This document shows, piece after piece, positions 31,566 through 40,555 of a stretch of DNA of 64,000 bases. Every line of letters starts with the position of its first letter. The stretch's first letter is position 1. This DNA is from Azospirillaceae bacterium (GTDB taxonomy: Bacteria; Pseudomonadota; Alphaproteobacteria; Azospirillales; Azospirillaceae). The translations under genes and the position numbers were made by a program. Where the stretch lies: contig DASQNC010000016.1 of the NCBI GenBank assembly GCA_035645145.1, forward strand, positions 124,001 through 188,000, in the 5' to 3' direction. The notes below the pieces were generated by a model, which was not told where the DNA came from, did not search any database, and was given only the letters and a program-made list of their open reading frames with translations.

Positions 31566-31654
31566 TGGTGTTCTCCTGTTCCCTTGGGCCGCCCCACCCC
31601 AGCCGTTCGCGGCCGATGGCGGGAAGCTAGGGTTTGCCCCGGGAACGGGACAGA

Positions 31655-31694
31655 GATGAAAAATCGCTGGACTTCATCTCCATGTCCGATGGAG
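31655..31694. promoter_or_regulatory. Possible LysR operator between doxX and lysR
   Basis: Two inverted repeats lie in the divergent spacer: GATGAA-N12-TTCATC (31655-31678) and CTCCAT-N5-ATGGAG (31678-31694). LysR regulators typically bind such paired palindromes next to their own promoter. Confidence 0.35.
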
Positions 31695-31753
31695 TTTTGT
31701 GGGGTCCGTCACGGGCCGACCGGACCCGGCAGCACGGCGACCTGTCCCTCGGC

Positions 31754-32677
31754 ATGAACCTCGACCCGATCTCGTTCGACCAGCTTCGCGTTGTGCTTGC
31801 CGTTGTGGAAACCGGCAGCTTCACCGCCGCCAGCAAGCGTCTGCGCCGCGCCCAATCGGCCGTCAGCCAGGCGGTGATGAACCTGGAAGCCCAGCTCGGG
31901 GTCGCGCTGTTCGACCGGTCCGCCTACCGCCCGCGGCTCACCCCGGCAGGCGAGACGCTGGTCGCCGAAATCCGGACAATCGTGGAACGCGGCGAATTCC
32001 TGCGGTCCCAGGCCCGGGCGATCGCGGCCGGTCTGGAGCCCGAGTTGCGCATCGTTTTGGACGCGGTCTGGCCCATGGGGGCCTTCGCCACCGTCCTTTC
32101 GGAATTCCGGACGCGCTTCCCCACGGTGGGCATCCGCCTCCATGTCGAGGCGCTGGGCGGCGTGGTCGAGAAGGTGATGGACGGGACCTGCGATCTCGGT
32201 GTCCTGGCGACCATGCCCGAGCTGCCGGCCGGGCTGATCGGCCGGACGCTGCGCCCGGTGCTGATGATCCCCGTGGCCGCCCCCTCGCACCCGCTGGCCG
32301 GGCACACCGGCCGCATCCCGAAGGTCAAGCTGCACGACCAGGTGCAGATCGTCCTGACCGACCGCAGCCGCCTGACGGCCGGCCGGGACTTCTGGGTGCT
32401 GTCGCCGCGGACGTGGCGTGTGGCCGACCTGTCCAGCAAACGCGAGCTGCTGAAGGCGGGCCTGGGCTGGGGGAGCATGCCGCGGCACATGGTGGCGGAC
32501 GATCTCAGCAGTGGCGCGCTGCGCCGGATCGAGATCGAGGGCATGCCGGAAACGGACCTGCTGCCGGCCTTTGCCTTCCACCGCGCCGATGGCGTTCCCG
32601 GCATTGCCGGCCGCTGGATGCTCGACCGGCTCGCCGGGGGCGTTCCCGACCCCCACGCCGCGTTCACGGGTTCGTAA
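31754..32677 (+). CDS. LysR family transcriptional regulator
   Basis: A 307-residue LysR regulator. The DNA-binding part is ISFDQLRVVLAVVETGSFT with RAQSAVSQAVMNLEAQLGV. The effector domain follows. ATG 31754 matches the family start; the frame extends 40 codons upstream without similarity. It diverges from doxX, its likely target. The next gene on this strand, the TPR-GH30 gene, is 24 bases away, so co-transcription is possible. Confidence 0.85.
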   Translation: MNLDPISFDQLRVVLAVVETGSFTAASKRLRRAQSAVSQAVMNLEAQLGVALFDRSAYRPRLTPAGETLVAEIRTIVERGEFLRSQARAIAAGLEPELRIVLDAVWPMGAFATVLSEFRTRFPTVGIRLHVEALGGVVEKVMDGTCDLGVLATMPELPAGLIGRTLRPVLMIPVAAPSHPLAGHTGRIPKVKLHDQVQIVLTDRSRLTAGRDFWVLSPRTWRVADLSSKRELLKAGLGWGSMPRHMVADDLSSGALRRIEIEGMPETDLLPAFAFHRADGVPGIAGRWMLDRLAGGVPDPHAAFTGS

Positions 32678-32701: not shown

Positions 32702-35065
32702 ATGGCCTGGAAGGGAACGGTGCCGGGATCCGGCTCAGCGCTCGCGGCACTTCGCTGCGCCGCCGCCGTTCTTGTTCTGATGACGGCCACATCCCCGCCG
32801 GCTTCGTCCGGCCCTCCCGGGAAGGGCGGCGTCGATGCCGTGCTGGACGCCGCGCGGGCGGCCGCACGGTCGGACCGCAATGCGCTGTCGGTCGAGCTTT
32901 TCCAACAGGCGCTGCGGGCCGCGCCGGAGCGCCGGGACGAGATCCTGCGCGAATACGCGGACCAGCTCGTCTATGCCGGGCGCCCCGCCGAAGCGATTCC
33001 GCTTTTCACCGAAGTCCTGGGCTCGCGCGGTCTCCCCGGCCAGGAACGCCGCCGCGCCGAGCGGGCCCTGGCGTTGGCCCTGCTGTGGAGCGGCCGGTTC
33101 GCGGAGGCCGTGCCGGCCTATGATCGCGTGCTCTCCGCATCCCCTGGCGATACGGACGCGGCGAAGGATCTGGTCCGCGCGCTGGCCGGGGCGGCGCGCG
33201 CCATGGCCCAGGTGGACCGGAATGCGGAGTCCGCCGCCCTGTTCGATCGGGCGATCCGGCTTGCGCCCCGGACCCGCGGCGAGCTGCTGCGGGAGTACGC
33301 GGACCAATTGAGCTTCACCCGGCGCGCGGCCGATGCGGTACCGCTCTACCGCGAGGTCCTGTCGTGGCCCGGTACCGACCCGGAGCAGGCCCGTGATGCC
33401 CGCCGCGGACTCGCGCTCGCCCTGTCCTGGAGCGGCCGGCCCGAAGAGGCGCAGGCGGAATACGAAGCGGTGATCCGCGACTTCCCCGCCGATTTGCCGG
33501 CGCGGCTGGGTCGCGCCCGCGTTCTCGCGGAGCGCGGGCTTCGCGCCGAGGCGCTGGCGGAATACGAAACCGCCCTCGGCCTCGATCCCCGCCACCCGGA
33601 AGCGCTCAAAGGGCGGGAGCGCGTGAGGGCCGCGGACGACCCTCCACCAACCGTCCCGGCACCGCGTCCTCCGGCATGGGCATCGACGACCCAGGCCGGG
33701 GCACCCGGGGTGTGGACATGGGTCACCACCACCGATGCCGGCCGGCTGCTCAGCCCGGGCCCTGCCGTATCCGTACGGACGCCGGACGGCAGCGGCGCCG
33801 CGCCCGTGCTGACGATCGACGATGCCGACCTGGGCCAGCGGATCGAAGGGTTCGGCGCGGCCCTCACGGAATCCTCGGCCTGGCTGATCCAGGGGCTCGC
33901 GCCTCCGCGGCGCGACGAGCTGATGACCCGGCTGTTCGATCCCGCGCGCGGGATCGGGCTCAGCTATCTGCGCCAGCCGATGGGATCCTCGGAGTTCGCC
34001 CTTTCCCACTACAGCTACGACGACCTGCCGCGGGGCGAGGCCGACCCGGCGCTCGCGCGCGTCTCCATCGACCGCGAGCGCCGGTACGTGATCCCGCTGC
34101 TGCGGCAGGCCCGCGCGCTCAATCCGCAATTGCGGCTGATGGCGACACCGTGGACGGCGCCGGGGTGGATGAAGACCAGCGGCTCGCTCCTGGGCGGACG
34201 CCTGCGTGCCGACGCCTATCCGGCCTATGCGCAATACTTCGTGCGCGTCCTGGAAGCCTTCTCGGCCGAAGGGCTGGCGATCGATGCCGTCACCGTCCAG
34301 AACGAGCCGACCACCCTGCCCGGCGACATGCCCGGCATGCTCATGGACACCGACGAGCAGGCGGCCTTCATCGGCGACCACCTCGGCCCGGCGCTGCGGG
34401 CCGGCGGCTTCAAGGTCCGGGTCCTCGCGTGGGACGACAACCTCGACCGGACCGATCCGGCGCGGACCCTGCTGAACGACCCCAAGGCCGGACGGCACCT
34501 CGCCGGGGCCGCCTTCCACGCCTACCGCGGCCGGCCCGAGGCGATTGCCCCGCTGGCCGCCGACCACCCGGACCGCATGTTCCTGATTTCCGAAGGCAGT
34601 TCCGGGACGTGGGAGACGGCTTTCGGGACGAACCTCCGCCACGACATCGGCCGCCTGATCATCCCGGCGCTGCGGAACGGGGCGGCCGGCGTGCTCAAGT
34701 GGAACATCGCCCTCGACCCGCGACATGGGCCGCGGACGGGCGGGTGCTCGCGATGCACCGGCCTGGTCACCATCGATCCCGTGACGGGCGGGCTCCAATT
34801 CAACCACGACTTCTTCGCACTCGGGCATTTCAGCAAGTTCATCGCCCCCGGCGCGCGCTTGGTCCGGTCGAAGACAGCCGGTGCGGCCACGCTCCAGACC
34901 GTCGCCGCCCTCAACCCGGACGGCAGCCTTGCCGTCGTGCTTTACAATCCCGAGCGCGCGGAGGCGGCGGTCGATATCCGCTGGCGCGGGCTGTCCGCCG
35001 GGGTGCCCGTGCCGGCGGAGGCCGTCATGACCCTGGTCTGGCGACGGGCCGCCGGCGCCACCTGA
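32702..35065 (+). CDS. Secreted TPR protein fused to GH30 glycoside hydrolase
   Basis: A 787-residue two-part protein. Residues 1-35 look like a signal peptide. Residues about 45-310 hold TPR-like repeats (LREYADQL, ALALLWSGRFAEAVPAYDRVL) very like those of the TPR-barrel protein at 37191-39458. Residues about 320-785 are a GH30 glucosylceramidase-like glycosidase with EGFGAALTESSAW, acid/base E535 (VQNEPTTL), nucleophile E631 (LISEGSSG) and a C-terminal beta domain. GH30 enzymes cut beta-linked sugars. It converges on the glycosyltransferase operon with a 22-base gap. A role in trimming the exported polysaccharide, like BcsZ in cellulose systems, is inferred. Confidence 0.85.
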   Translation: MAWKGTVPGSGSALAALRCAAAVLVLMTATSPPASSGPPGKGGVDAVLDAARAAARSDRNALSVELFQQALRAAPERRDEILREYADQLVYAGRPAEAIPLFTEVLGSRGLPGQERRRAERALALALLWSGRFAEAVPAYDRVLSASPGDTDAAKDLVRALAGAARAMAQVDRNAESAALFDRAIRLAPRTRGELLREYADQLSFTRRAADAVPLYREVLSWPGTDPEQARDARRGLALALSWSGRPEEAQAEYEAVIRDFPADLPARLGRARVLAERGLRAEALAEYETALGLDPRHPEALKGRERVRAADDPPPTVPAPRPPAWASTTQAGAPGVWTWVTTTDAGRLLSPGPAVSVRTPDGSGAAPVLTIDDADLGQRIEGFGAALTESSAWLIQGLAPPRRDELMTRLFDPARGIGLSYLRQPMGSSEFALSHYSYDDLPRGEADPALARVSIDRERRYVIPLLRQARALNPQLRLMATPWTAPGWMKTSGSLLGGRLRADAYPAYAQYFVRVLEAFSAEGLAIDAVTVQNEPTTLPGDMPGMLMDTDEQAAFIGDHLGPALRAGGFKVRVLAWDDNLDRTDPARTLLNDPKAGRHLAGAAFHAYRGRPEAIAPLAADHPDRMFLISEGSSGTWETAFGTNLRHDIGRLIIPALRNGAAGVLKWNIALDPRHGPRTGGCSRCTGLVTIDPVTGGLQFNHDFFALGHFSKFIAPGARLVRSKTAGAATLQTVAALNPDGSLAVVLYNPERAEAAVDIRWRGLSAGVPVPAEAVMTLVWRRAAGAT

Positions 35066-35087
35066 TGGACAGGCCGCACGGCCGGGT

Positions 35088-37187
35088 TCAGGACGCCGTT
35101 CCCCTTGGGGTCTCGGGCATTTCCATCGCCGTGTCCGCGGGCGGGGCCTCGTCCTTCTTGAGCGGTTCCGTATGGGCCCGGACGGTGCGCGGGGTCACGC
35201 GCCAGACCCGCTCCCGCATGGCCTCCTTCGCGTGCGACCAACGCGACAGCAGGTTCTTGAAGCCGGTGTAGAAAAACAACGAGACGGGCAGGTACCAGAC
35301 GAACCACCACCGCCGGCGCCGGATCGACTCGTCCGCCAGAATGTAGGTGAACAGGACGCTCGCCGGGCCGACGGTCAACGTATAGGCCGTGGTCGCGACG
35401 AAGATCGGGACCAGCCAGTCGATGTTCTCGAAGCCCCAGTCGTAGATCCAGAACACCAGAATGGGGAGCACCTGGATCGAGAACCACGGGAAGAGTTCCC
35501 GCCAGACCAGCAGGTGGAACATCCCCGCCTTCTGACGCAGGCTGAGGTGCCGCGAGGTGATGCCGGGGATGAACCATTTGACCGAGACCTGGAACCAGCC
35601 CTGGGCCCAGCGGAGCCGCTGGTTCATCAACTGCTTGAGCGTCGTCGGGGCGAGTTCGCGGGAGATCAGGTGGGGGTCGTTGGCGATCCGGTAGCCCGAG
35701 TTGATGACCCGCAGCGTGCTGTCGATGTCCTCGGTCAGCATGAAATGATGCATGCGGGTCAGCCGCAGCAGTTCGGTCCGCCAGTAGCCGTTGGAGCCCC
35801 CGAACAGCCCGAACCCGTGCAGCTTCGCCCGGCCGGGGTGGCTGGCGGCGTAGATGGATTCGAACTCGACGGCCACCATCCGCGCCACCCAGGAATCGTC
35901 GCCGTTGCGGATCAGGCAGTGGCCCTGGACGATGTCGTAGCCGTTCGACAGCCACCGCCATGCCCGTTCGAAGCTGCCGGGATCGGGCTTGTGGTCGGCG
36001 TCGAACACACCGACGAACGTGCCGGTGCATCGGCCCACCGCGGCATTCACGTTCTGGGCCTTGGACGTGCTGCCCATGACCCGTAGCGGCAGGAAGTCGG
36101 GGTGCCGCCGGGCCAGTTCCCGGAACTCCGCCTCGATCGCCATGTCCTCGGGCGTGTTGTAGGCCAGGATGATCTGGAGACGCGCCGGGTAGTCCTGGGC
36201 CAGGAACGACTCCAGGGTTTCCAGGATGGTCTCGGCCTCGTTGGGCAGGTAGGCCGCAATGATGGCGCTGGCGGACGGCCAGGGTTCGCCCGGCTCGTCG
36301 GGTGGTTGCAGCGGCCGGAGGGCCAGGAACGCCTCGATCCAGATGAAGGTCGCCGTCACCACCAGCATGAGGACGACCATCAGGTAGACCGTCCACGAGA
36401 CGTCCCACCCGATGGCGGCGAGCGCCCAGTACATCCAGAACGGGGCGAACAAGCCGACCACGAAGGTCGAGGCGATCTGGAACGGTGTCCGAACCTTGCC
36501 CATGAACCGGCGCCACACCGTATCCGTCGGCTGTGAGGTCCGTTCCATCCGGGGGTGGTAGCGGACCGGCAGAAGGTCCAGGTGGCTCCGGGCATAGTCG
36601 GTCGCCACCTGGACGCGCAGCCACAGCCGCTGGAAGCTGGGCCCTTGGTGGAACGCCGCGTGGCCGATGACCGGTGTGAACCGGAAGCACTCGCCCTCGA
36701 CCTGGAAAGGATGGCTGGCGATACGGCGGGACAGCAGCCGCAGCCGGCGGTAGACCCGGCGCCGGCCGGCTCCCGGCAGCAGGATCACGAACTTGCCGAC
36801 CCTGTGGTGCCGGCCCACGATCTCGCCCGGCAGGGCGTCGCGACCGATCAGTTCGCCCAGCTGCGCCATCACCTCGTGGTCGACCCGCTCGCTGTAGCGC
36901 CGGTACGCCATGAAGTCGGGAAACTCCTCGATCTCCAGGAAGGCCAGGGTCCCGGTTCCGGTCGGGCCGCGCAGCTCGCGGAAGATCGGCCGGGCCCGGG
37001 CGCGGAACTCCCGCGGGGACAGGAAGACCGCGCTGGGTCGTCCGCGGGGTGGCAGCAGACGCCGCACCAGCGATGGCGGGCGAGGCGGGCGCGCCATGGC
37101 CTCCCGCGGCGATGCGACCACCGGTCGGGTTTCACCCAACCGGAATTCCTGCAGGAGGTCGGCCACCCGCGGATCGTCCTGGGGCAT
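35088..37187 (-). CDS. Processive family-2 glycosyltransferase with degenerate GGDEF domain
   Basis: A 699-residue membrane synthase. Residues about 78-185 resemble a GGDEF domain (FLEIEEFPDFM, then VILLPGAGRRRVYRRLRLL), but the GGDEF signature is replaced by RVGKF (129-133), so it cannot make c-di-GMP. Two helices follow (about 242-288). The GT2 domain has FDADHKPD (396), TED at 485 and QRLRW (523-527), the marks of a processive beta-glycan synthase. About four C-terminal helices follow. No PilZ domain is seen. It starts three bases after the TPR-barrel gene. It should polymerise and extrude an exopolysaccharide; c-di-GMP sensing by the N-terminal domain is a hypothesis. Confidence 0.85.
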   Translation of the reverse strand: MPQDDPRVADLLQEFRLGETRPVVASPREAMARPPRPPSLVRRLLPPRGRPSAVFLSPREFRARARPIFRELRGPTGTGTLAFLEIEEFPDFMAYRRYSERVDHEVMAQLGELIGRDALPGEIVGRHHRVGKFVILLPGAGRRRVYRRLRLLSRRIASHPFQVEGECFRFTPVIGHAAFHQGPSFQRLWLRVQVATDYARSHLDLLPVRYHPRMERTSQPTDTVWRRFMGKVRTPFQIASTFVVGLFAPFWMYWALAAIGWDVSWTVYLMVVLMLVVTATFIWIEAFLALRPLQPPDEPGEPWPSASAIIAAYLPNEAETILETLESFLAQDYPARLQIILAYNTPEDMAIEAEFRELARRHPDFLPLRVMGSTSKAQNVNAAVGRCTGTFVGVFDADHKPDPGSFERAWRWLSNGYDIVQGHCLIRNGDDSWVARMVAVEFESIYAASHPGRAKLHGFGLFGGSNGYWRTELLRLTRMHHFMLTEDIDSTLRVINSGYRIANDPHLISRELAPTTLKQLMNQRLRWAQGWFQVSVKWFIPGITSRHLSLRQKAGMFHLLVWRELFPWFSIQVLPILVFWIYDWGFENIDWLVPIFVATTAYTLTVGPASVLFTYILADESIRRRRWWFVWYLPVSLFFYTGFKNLLSRWSHAKEAMRERVWRVTPRTVRAHTEPLKKDEAPPADTAMEMPETPRGTAS

Positions 37188-37190
37188 CGC

Positions 37191-39458
37191 CTACCACCTG
37201 TACCGCAGCGTGAGGCCGATGGTCGTCCGCGTGAACCCGCCACCTTGGGGATCTTCGAGCGGGCTGAGGCGGGCCAATCGGACCTTGCCCTCCCATTGGT
37301 CGGAGAAGACATAGGTCAGCCCGGCCGAGGCCCGCCAGACCACCTGGAACCCGCCGGGCTCCTGCCACTCCCCGCCGATACCGCCTTCGGCCTCGTACCA
37401 GAGCCGGTTGGCGAACACTCCGTCCCAGATCTTCGCCGTCGCCAGAAGGACGCGGGCATCCCTGGGATTCCAGTAGCCATTGTCGAGGACCTCCTCGAAC
37501 CGGAACGCGGTCGCCTCCACGCCCAGCACGATGTTGGGTTCCCGCAGGACCAGCTGCTGGAGGTGGGCCTGCCCCCACACGCGGCGATTGCCGTCCGTGT
37601 ACCAGCCGTAGTCGCCGCGCAGGGCCAGGGTGGTGGACGGCGTGGGACGGACATCCACCGAGAGCGAGGCGTACGTCGCGGTGATCCGCTCGACCAGCGA
37701 TTCGATGTTGTCGAAGAACACGCGGCGGCTGCCGACATAGACGCTGGCGAAGTCCGTGGGCTCGAACGTCGCATAGGCATCGTAGGTCGGGACCACGGCC
37801 TCCATGCCGCCGTGCAGGATGTTCAGGTCGGCCCGCGCGTCGATCCGCGCCCCATCGCCGAACCGGTGGCCCAGCCGGAACCCCGGCGACTGGACGCGCA
37901 CGGGGGGATCGGGGGCGTCCGGCAGGAACTGGGCGGACCGGAATGTGATGCCGACCTTCGTGAGGCCGTCGTTCAGGGTGTGGACATGCTCCACCGTCTG
38001 GGTGGCGATGACCAGCCCGTTGGATTGGGTCGAGACCCAGGCATCGACCTCGGTCCGGGGCCGCATCTCGCGGCGGATGTCGGCCATCAGTGCCTCCGCC
38101 GTCCTGTCGTCGGGGTTTTCGGCCAAAAGACCCTCGGCGATGGTCCGGGCCCGGTCGGACCGGCCCATCCAGAACAGGGTTTGGGCGAGCAGCCGGCGGG
38201 CCTCGGGGTCCTCGGGCCGCTCCTCCAGAAGGCCGCGGAAATCCCGCACCGCCCCCCGGTGGCGTCCCCGCCAGCTCCGCACCTGGGCCAAGCCCCGCCA
38301 AGCCTCGGCATTGTCGGGATCCTGCTCCAGGACCTTGCGGAACGCGTCCTCGGCCGTCCGAAGATCGCCCTGCCATGCCATGACACGGGCGGACCCGATC
38401 CGCGCGTCCATGTCGTCGGGGTTTTCGGCCAGAAGAGTTTCGTAGATCCGGAGCGCCTCGGCGTGCCGGTCGCTCCACGACAGGGCCAGGGCCAGCCCCA
38501 GGCGCAGGCCCCGCCGCTCCTTCGGGTCCAGGTTCTCCCGTGCCAGCGCCTCGTGGAACAGCGGGATGGCCTCGGTCTTGCCGCCGGCCCACAGAAGCTG
38601 CTCGGCGTACCGGCCGAGGTGCTTTTCGCGCAACGAGGGGTCGGCCGCGAACGCCCGCCGGTAGGTGTCCGCCGCGGCGGCGTTGTCGTTTTCCCAACCC
38701 AGCGCCTGGGCCTTGCCGACCAGCAGCTCCCCGTCCCGGGGCTGTTCGGCCAGCAGCCGGTCGTATTGGGCGATGGCTTCCCGGTGCCGCCCGGACCAAG
38801 CCAACGCCAGCGCAAGGTTCCGGCCGGCACGCTGGCGGTCCTCGGCGGACGCGGCGCCGGAGGACAGGACTTCCCGGTACCGGGCGATGGCCTCACTCTT
38901 GCCACCCGCCCACAGAAGTTGGTCGGCGAGCTTGGCAAGGTGCTTTCCCCGCACGGCGGGGTCGATCTGGAACGCTCGGCTGTAGGTTTCCGCGGCCTCG
39001 GCGTTCCGGTTGGACCAGCCGAGCGCCTCGGCCTTGCCGATCAGGAGGCCGGCGTCCCGCGGATGCCTGGCGAGAAGCGCGTCGTAGCGGCGGACCGCCT
39101 CCGCGTGCTGGCCGGCCCACGCATAGGCCAGGGCCAAATTCCGCTCGGCCCGGTCCCGGTCCTCCGCCGGGATCAGGCGGAAGGACAGGTACTCGTGGTA
39201 GAGCGGGATCGCATCGCGGCTGCCGCCACTGTAGAGCACTTGGTCGGCGTATTCGCGGAGCAGCCGCCGGCGCAGGGTCGGCCGCTCCGCAAGCGCTGCC
39301 TCGAACAGCTGGCGGGCCCGGTGGTTGTCATCCTGAACGGCGGCTTCGCGGGCTTGGTCGACAAGGTCGCGCGTCGTTGGCTCGTCCTGGGCCGAGGCGG
39401 CGCCCATTGTCGAAAAAAGGAAGGCGATTCCAGCCAGCGCACCCTTGCGGAGCCACAC
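37191..39458 (-). CDS. TPR protein with C-terminal outer-membrane barrel
   Basis: A 755-residue exported protein. A signal peptide ends near residue 23 (GAASAQ). About residues 30-490 hold TPR-like repeats in three near-identical blocks (LLWAGGKSEAIARYREVL, LALALAWSGRHREAIAQYD). About 500-755 is beta-rich with alternating residues and ends in LRYRW; a terminal aromatic is typical of outer-membrane barrels. The layout is that of BcsC/AlgK-AlgE/PgaA export proteins: periplasmic TPR scaffold plus porin. It is the first gene of a two-gene operon with the synthase, so it should carry the polymer across the outer membrane. Confidence 0.85.
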   Translation of the reverse strand: MWLRKGALAGIAFLFSTMGAASAQDEPTTRDLVDQAREAAVQDDNHRARQLFEAALAERPTLRRRLLREYADQVLYSGGSRDAIPLYHEYLSFRLIPAEDRDRAERNLALAYAWAGQHAEAVRRYDALLARHPRDAGLLIGKAEALGWSNRNAEAAETYSRAFQIDPAVRGKHLAKLADQLLWAGGKSEAIARYREVLSSGAASAEDRQRAGRNLALALAWSGRHREAIAQYDRLLAEQPRDGELLVGKAQALGWENDNAAAADTYRRAFAADPSLREKHLGRYAEQLLWAGGKTEAIPLFHEALARENLDPKERRGLRLGLALALSWSDRHAEALRIYETLLAENPDDMDARIGSARVMAWQGDLRTAEDAFRKVLEQDPDNAEAWRGLAQVRSWRGRHRGAVRDFRGLLEERPEDPEARRLLAQTLFWMGRSDRARTIAEGLLAENPDDRTAEALMADIRREMRPRTEVDAWVSTQSNGLVIATQTVEHVHTLNDGLTKVGITFRSAQFLPDAPDPPVRVQSPGFRLGHRFGDGARIDARADLNILHGGMEAVVPTYDAYATFEPTDFASVYVGSRRVFFDNIESLVERITATYASLSVDVRPTPSTTLALRGDYGWYTDGNRRVWGQAHLQQLVLREPNIVLGVEATAFRFEEVLDNGYWNPRDARVLLATAKIWDGVFANRLWYEAEGGIGGEWQEPGGFQVVWRASAGLTYVFSDQWEGKVRLARLSPLEDPQGGGFTRTTIGLTLRYRW

Positions 39459-40078
39459 CCCAACCCCTCTCGGTCACCTTTGAAAAGTCGGTGTAAACCC
39501 CGGGGCGACAGAGTTCGTTGCAAAGCCTCTTCGATCACACCAGATCTCTAAAGCACATGTCGACCGACAGACGCGCAAACTCACACAACGACATGCACAA
39601 CCAAAAATTATCTCATGACATCACCAGACAGTCGCAATGAGCATAACAGGAACGTAACGAAAATCCGCAACCCATTACACGAGACAAGACAGGGACGGCA
39701 CTCCGTTTACAAAACTTCTCTAACATAAATCAGCCATCGCAATGACAGGCACTCGCCCCCCCTTGGAGGGGGATCACCTCGATCCCGGACACACGCTGGG
39801 TTCATACGGGCCCATGGGTTCCGGGTACGCGCCTCCGCTGCAAGCAAGGGTTCCCTTCCGGCATGGACGTCAGCCAGCGTCGGAACGCTCCATGACCGGG
39901 CCGCAGCAGGTCTCATTCCGGTTCGAACAGCGCCCCCTTTGCCGTGGTTCGCCCGTGGTAGTAGGGAAACCCTGGTGAGCAGGGCCTTTCTGTTGAAGGA
40001 CCATCCGTCCGCCGCGGGAGCCCGCTCCCGTGTGATCGACGCGGCTCACCCATTCCCGACCCATGCGCGAGCGGGGCC
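39459..40078. other. AT-rich intergenic region upstream of the export operon
   Basis: 620 bases without a convincing gene. About 39530-39740 is strikingly AT-richer than the rest of the window. On the minus strand, towards the TPR-barrel gene, there are two weak sigma-70-like candidates: TTGCGA about 19 bases before GATAAT, and TTGCGG 17-18 bases before a TTATG-like box. The long distance to the gene suggests a regulated leader. The part from 39760 on has normal base composition. It may be horizontally acquired or a regulator landing zone. Confidence 0.4.
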
Positions 40079-40465: not shown

Positions 40466-40555
40466 TGGCGGAGGGGATGGGATTCGAACCCACGATACCG
40501 TTTCCGGTATACCCGCTTTCCAGGCGAGCGCCTTCAACCACTCGGCCACCCCTCC
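40466..40555 (-). tRNA. tRNA-Ser (GGA anticodon)
   Basis: A 90-base class II tRNA including an encoded CCA end. Acceptor arms GGAGGGG/CCCCTCC with discriminator G, D-arm GGCCGAGTGGTTGAAGGC, anticodon loop CTGGAAA (anticodon GGA), a long variable arm (TACCGGAAACGGTA stem) and T-arm GGGTTCGAATCCC are all visible. It reads UCC and UCU serine codons. Confidence 0.97.

Follow-up and report, generated by a model that had tools for sequence, protein, structure and literature searches.

The locus at positions 32,702–39,458 of the window (the whole stretch of 64,000 nucleotides of Azospirillaceae DNA that was analysed) raises the question whether its three genes constitute one system for the synthesis, export and trimming of an exopolysaccharide and, if so, of what kind. 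Three intact open reading frames were found, with exactly the coordinates of an earlier note in which they had been read as a synthase-dependent system: a secreted TPR-GH30 protein (32702..35065, + strand, 787 aa; Pfam GH30, E = 3e-48), a processive GT2 polysaccharide synthase (35088..37187, − strand, 699 aa; Pfam GT2, 2e-28) and a TPR/outer-membrane β-barrel export protein (37191..39458, − strand, 755 aa; Pfam TPRs and AlphaFold model). Both the side-by-side arrangement and the logic proposed (processive GT2, 16-strand TPR porin, secreted glycosidase) were borne out. The usual accessory genes were absent, as had been noted: no bcsB-, pgaB- or algK-like gene adjoins the three-gene locus.

The barrel and synthase genes, spaced by 3 nt, probably form one operon with the synthase second, to judge from their arrangement. 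The AT-rich intergenic stretch upstream of it (39459..39800, − strand) is the presumed promoter region; a search of this stretch gave no sigma-70-like site. The TPR-GH30 gene lies outside the operon and is convergent with it, with 22 bp between the stop codons. The TPR-GH30 gene is preceded, at a distance of 24 nt and in the same orientation, by a LysR-family regulator gene (31634–32677, + strand), which possibly controls it; this regulator was not found in ten related genomes. A tRNA-Ser(GGA) gene (40466–40555, − strand) lies upstream of the operon, ca. 1 kb from its start. Its proximity, together with the absence of the locus from relatives, hints at horizontal acquisition near the tRNA; no empty insertion site was found in the relatives searched, from which the upstream LysR gene was missing as well.

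The AlphaFold model of the synthase (pLDDT 83.9) consists of an N-terminal α/β domain, two long helices, a GT2 core and C-terminal membrane helices, and matches the folds of BcsA and hyaluronan synthase (Foldseek; best match BcsA). The motifs of a processive membrane GT2 are all present, viz., DxD (D396/D398), TED (485–487) and QxxRW (523–527), and are invariant across 82 synthase homologues. By profile, the nearest characterised synthase is PgaC (6.5e-16), followed by BcsA (1.1e-10). Two further GT2 synthases, of the BcsA/PilZ-like type, are encoded elsewhere in the genome (L002, L004); cellulose-type synthesis would therefore be separate from the window locus.

Relatives of the synthase were collected as follows. 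A scan of the genome collection with the single protein gave none, and a two-sequence alignment was therefore used as query; it retrieved 188 relatives. The best 80 of these were examined, and all linkages to glycoside hydrolase, acyltransferase-3, kinase and barrel genes given below rest on these 80. The best 80 of 188 (ca. 45–55% identical) belong to Actinomycetota, Chloroflexota, Acidobacteriota, Comamonadaceae and other Proteobacteria. No relative was found in 81 other genomes of the same family, and relatives are rare in the class and phylum of the window organism. In the tree, the window synthase is nearest to two Sphingomonas sequences (support 97/97). The family is coherent, spans several phyla and is apparently undescribed. 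In one Sphingomonas MAG (L034:9917-14728), a single 1603-aa ORF encodes the synthase together with a long stretch of TPRs, either a fusion or an assembly artefact, followed by a barrel ORF and a GH5 gene.

The exporter carries a signal peptide, a TPR superhelix (residues ~26–465) and a barrel (residues 468–754); its model (pLDDT 90.7) shows exactly 16 strands behind the superhelix. The barrel is nearest to PgaA, its profile matching the PgaA barrel 4Y25 (E = 7.6e-8; hhalign 1.9e-6), and the best bacterial exporter match of the full model was BcsC 9b8a (Foldseek). In 14/16 diderm loci the synthase has a barrel homologue next to it, vs. 0/65 others (Fisher p = 7e-14); the two diderm loci without it are both on contigs that end near the synthase gene. 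The model, the homology to the PgaA barrel and the diderm-only co-occurrence mark this protein as the cognate TPR/β-barrel outer-membrane exporter.

In the TPR-GH30 protein, Pfam detected a GH30 catalytic domain, GH30C and TPRs. The catalytic domain with its β-sandwich (33710..35047, + strand) is subfamily-3-like, i.e., endo-β-1,6-glucanase-like: the best PDB match is the endo-β-1,6-glucanase BT3312 (5ngk, 4e-65), and 10/10 synthase-linked GH30s have NF053856 (endo-1,6-beta-glucanase) as their best family, the window protein reaching 286 bits where the curated cut-off is 700, i.e., below equivalog level. The residues at the catalytic positions (E535, E631) and the CxxC loop (C682/C685) are invariant in these ten, so that the window enzyme combines the catalytic Glu pair with a BT3312-type best match. 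Its TPR domain (32831..33631, + strand) is paralogous to that of the exporter (41% identity over 259 aa, E = 2e-44), and nothing else in its own genome except the barrel gene matches at that level (top three candidates scored). Unrelated TPRs would be expected to be much less alike, and the TPR domain therefore appears to be a copy of the exporter scaffold. The window GH30 is the sole GH30 of its genome; GH30 was found in 7/81 family genomes.

The N-terminal part of the synthase bears on control of the system. Residues ~58–202 (36582..37016, − strand) form a degenerate GGDEF-like domain, assigned by alignment and column counts: they align to the GGDEF domains of relatives and adopt an α/β fold in the confident model, and Pfam did not detect the domain in the window synthase itself. 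Among 41 homologues examined with Pfam, REC was found in 29 and GGDEF (PF00990) in 28; REC was detected in 63/82 family members, at least 63 of the 82 thus being REC-GGDEF-GT2 fusions, and the family profile matched PleD at 2e-52 over REC and GGDEF. The GGDEF/GGEEF motif of diguanylate cyclases is absent from 82/82 members. The Pfam matches, the PleD match and the lost motif identify the family as synthases fused to a PleD-like response regulator whose GGDEF domain is catalytically inactive; by homology, a PleD-like response regulator and a PgaC-like glycosyltransferase were joined in the ancestor of the family. GGDEF-glycosyltransferase fusions or REC-GGDEF-GT2 synthases were not found described in the literature searched (open-licence papers only). 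The window copy, like its two nearest Sphingomonas relatives, has no REC domain and is in this respect no PleD-like response regulator. One Paracoccaceae synthase (L021:9422-12700) has two REC stretches before GGDEF-GT2; the genes after it encode a kinase-like protein and a response regulator.

The GGDEF-like domain named in the earlier note was thus confirmed by alignment, PleD homology and model, but the GGDEF motif, I-site and REC are lost in the window copy; the wording of the note, a GGDEF-type instead of a PilZ regulator, was too strong for a PleD remnant that has neither catalytic function nor an I-site.

The neighbourhoods of the relatives were compared in 81 loci. Conservation of a GH30 gene beside the synthase, on which the earlier note had staked its proposal, held in part: the gene recurs, but only in 7/81 loci, all actinobacterial, vs. 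0.05 expected within 5 kb (an expectation derived from 25 GH30 genes in 50 host genomes, with rounded genome sizes). Counted as four clades only, the linkage still gave p = 3e-7. GH30 was missing beside the synthase in most loci, including all other diderm loci fetched and all Streptomyces. As regards the three-gene set, the two-gene core of synthase and barrel is therefore kept in diderms, whereas GH30 occurs in no other diderm locus. GH30 as a strict part of the system was rejected (a minority of loci; 0/4 further Pseudonocardiaceae loci).

Histidine kinase genes lie within 2 kb of the synthase gene in 22 loci, and response regulators recur too. In 35 loci, actinobacterial with few exceptions, an acyltransferase-3 gene is found at a distance of at most 2 kb; the gene directly adjoins the synthase gene in L031 (12056-13294) and in most Streptomyces/Lentzea loci, which suggests that the actinobacterial polymer is acylated. 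Some conserved “neighbours” in the Streptomyces/Lentzea loci were discarded, being apparently antisense shadows of the acyltransferase-3 gene. Single cases were a GH5 gene, most like glucan 1,3-β-glucosidase, beside the Sphingomonas system, a GH94 gene (β-glucan phosphorylase family) divergent from the synthase gene in a Chloroflexota MAG (L029:6695-9295), and sugar nucleotidyltransferases.

Taken as a whole, the window locus is best explained as a synthase-dependent exopolysaccharide system of Pga-like type by which a polymer is made, exported and trimmed, and this reading has good confidence; the system is recurrent and probably functional. The inner-membrane GT2 would polymerise a nucleotide sugar and move the chain out via a membrane channel of its own; the TPR superhelix of the partner would then lead the chain over the periplasm, and the 16-strand barrel would export it. 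Nicking or clearing of the polymer is the task of PgaB, BcsZ and AlgL in other systems; here, the periplasmic TPR-GH30 enzyme may perform it in place of the PgaB hydrolase. In most relatives, phosphorylation of REC, often by an adjacent histidine kinase, would probably switch the enzyme via the inactive GGDEF domain. As REC is missing from the window copy, its control must differ (by expression or through the residual GGDEF-like domain). The polymer is most likely a β-glucan, and a β-1,6 linkage is suggested tentatively; sugar and linkage are both tentative proposals from the GH30 specificity by similarity and the PgaC likeness of the synthase. The GH30 linkage is accordingly a concrete clue to a candidate polymer, and the TPR-GH30 protein would be an example of an exporter scaffold copied onto its own processing enzyme. 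A fuller scheme, in which the PleD-type head lets a histidine kinase control the synthase directly and a β-1,6-glucan leaves diderms by way of a PgaA-like TPR barrel and is trimmed by a GH30 β-1,6-glucanase, is distinctly speculative. If true, the ancestral form of the family would couple a response regulator directly to a polymer synthase, bypassing transcription and a diffusible second messenger; no description of such direct control was found in the papers searched.

Other explanations were weighed against the same data. The synthase and porin could be a real exopolysaccharide system next to which TPR-GH30 is a chance neighbour, an unrelated scavenger of fungal or plant β-1,6-glucan; its gene is on the strand opposite to the operon, no other diderm relative has it, and BT3312, its best characterised relative, is a dietary glucan scavenger. 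The paralogy of its TPR domain with that of the exporter, the lack of any other GH30 in the genome and the recurrence of GH30 next to synthases of this family in actinobacteria, much more often than by chance, make this unlikely. The similarities of synthase to PgaC (TIGR03937, 77 bits) and of barrel to PgaA would suit a divergent PNAG (poly-β-1,6-GlcNAc) system that has dispensed with PgaB and PgaD. The scores are far under the curated equivalog cut-offs (77/422 bits for PgaC, 91/367 bits for PgaA), PgaB gave no tblastn match in any of the 81 loci, no PgaB-type domain is present in the window locus, and the linked hydrolases resemble a glucanase and not PgaB; a PNAG system is consequently quite improbable.

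On the side of control, the GGDEF-like domain might be a c-di-GMP receptor. Its fold would allow this, RxxD occupies the I-site columns in 16/82 family members, and degenerate GGDEF receptors have precedents in PelD and BcsE (PMC8461298). The I-site arginine is, however, missing in most relatives, and the columns read LPGE in the window synthase, which in this respect differs from RxxD-bearing receptors of the PelD/BcsE type. With REC, GGDEF motif and I-site all lost, c-di-GMP control of the window synthase is unsupported and was set aside; a c-di-GMP-controlled synthase is accordingly held to have little likelihood. The loss of REC and the absence of the locus from relatives would also be met with in a decaying, non-functional import; the intact reading frames, the invariant catalytic residues and the 3-nt operon spacing make decay highly improbable. 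The Pga-like system that makes, exports and trims its polymer is retained as the preferred reading.

Of the known systems, PgaABCD (PNAG; E. coli, Yersinia Hms) shares with the locus a PgaC-like GT2, a PgaA-like TPR/16-strand barrel and a periplasmic glycoside hydrolase. It differs in that the window locus has GH30 instead of the PgaB deacetylase/hydrolase and is without PgaD, in the REC-GGDEF fusion of the synthase family, and presumably in the sugar. The Bcs cellulose system is alike in the synthase fold, the BcsC-like TPR-barrel and the endoglucanase, whereas the three locus proteins include no BcsB, PilZ or GH8; the CelA model gave 50/699 bits with the window synthase. With PleD, PelD and BcsE, the relation lies in the N-terminus: that of the family is homologous to PleD REC-GGDEF and degenerate as in PelD and BcsE, but is fused directly to a glycosyltransferase, with the GGDEF motif in 0/82 members and neither REC nor I-site in the window copy. 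The BT3312 GH30 has the same catalytic Glu positions and CxxC loop; unlike it, the window GH30 is fused to an exporter-derived TPR domain and is genomically linked to a synthase.

The comparison with the Nfr system of E. coli bears on novelty. NfrBA-YbcH makes the NGR glycan, and its Gram-positive homologues are without the porin (PMC8669469/PMC8669472). The two systems are alike in the minimal pair of GT2 and TPR outer-membrane protein, in a non-PilZ domain on the synthase and in the lack of a porin in Gram-positive homologues; they differ in that NfrB has a C-terminal MshEN domain, for which Pfam gave no match in the window synthase, and in that the Nfr system is without a glycosidase. Direct relationship was rejected, both profile comparisons being non-significant (hhalign probability 5.5% for NfrB with the synthase, 1.2% for NfrA with the barrel). 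The pair of TPR porin and GT2 with a non-PilZ domain is nevertheless not new: NfrAB is a two-gene precedent, a GT2 synthase carrying a non-PilZ regulatory domain together with a TPR porin (PMC8669469). The core logic of synthase and porin is already known from NfrAB, to which the system of the window is similar in function without belonging to it.
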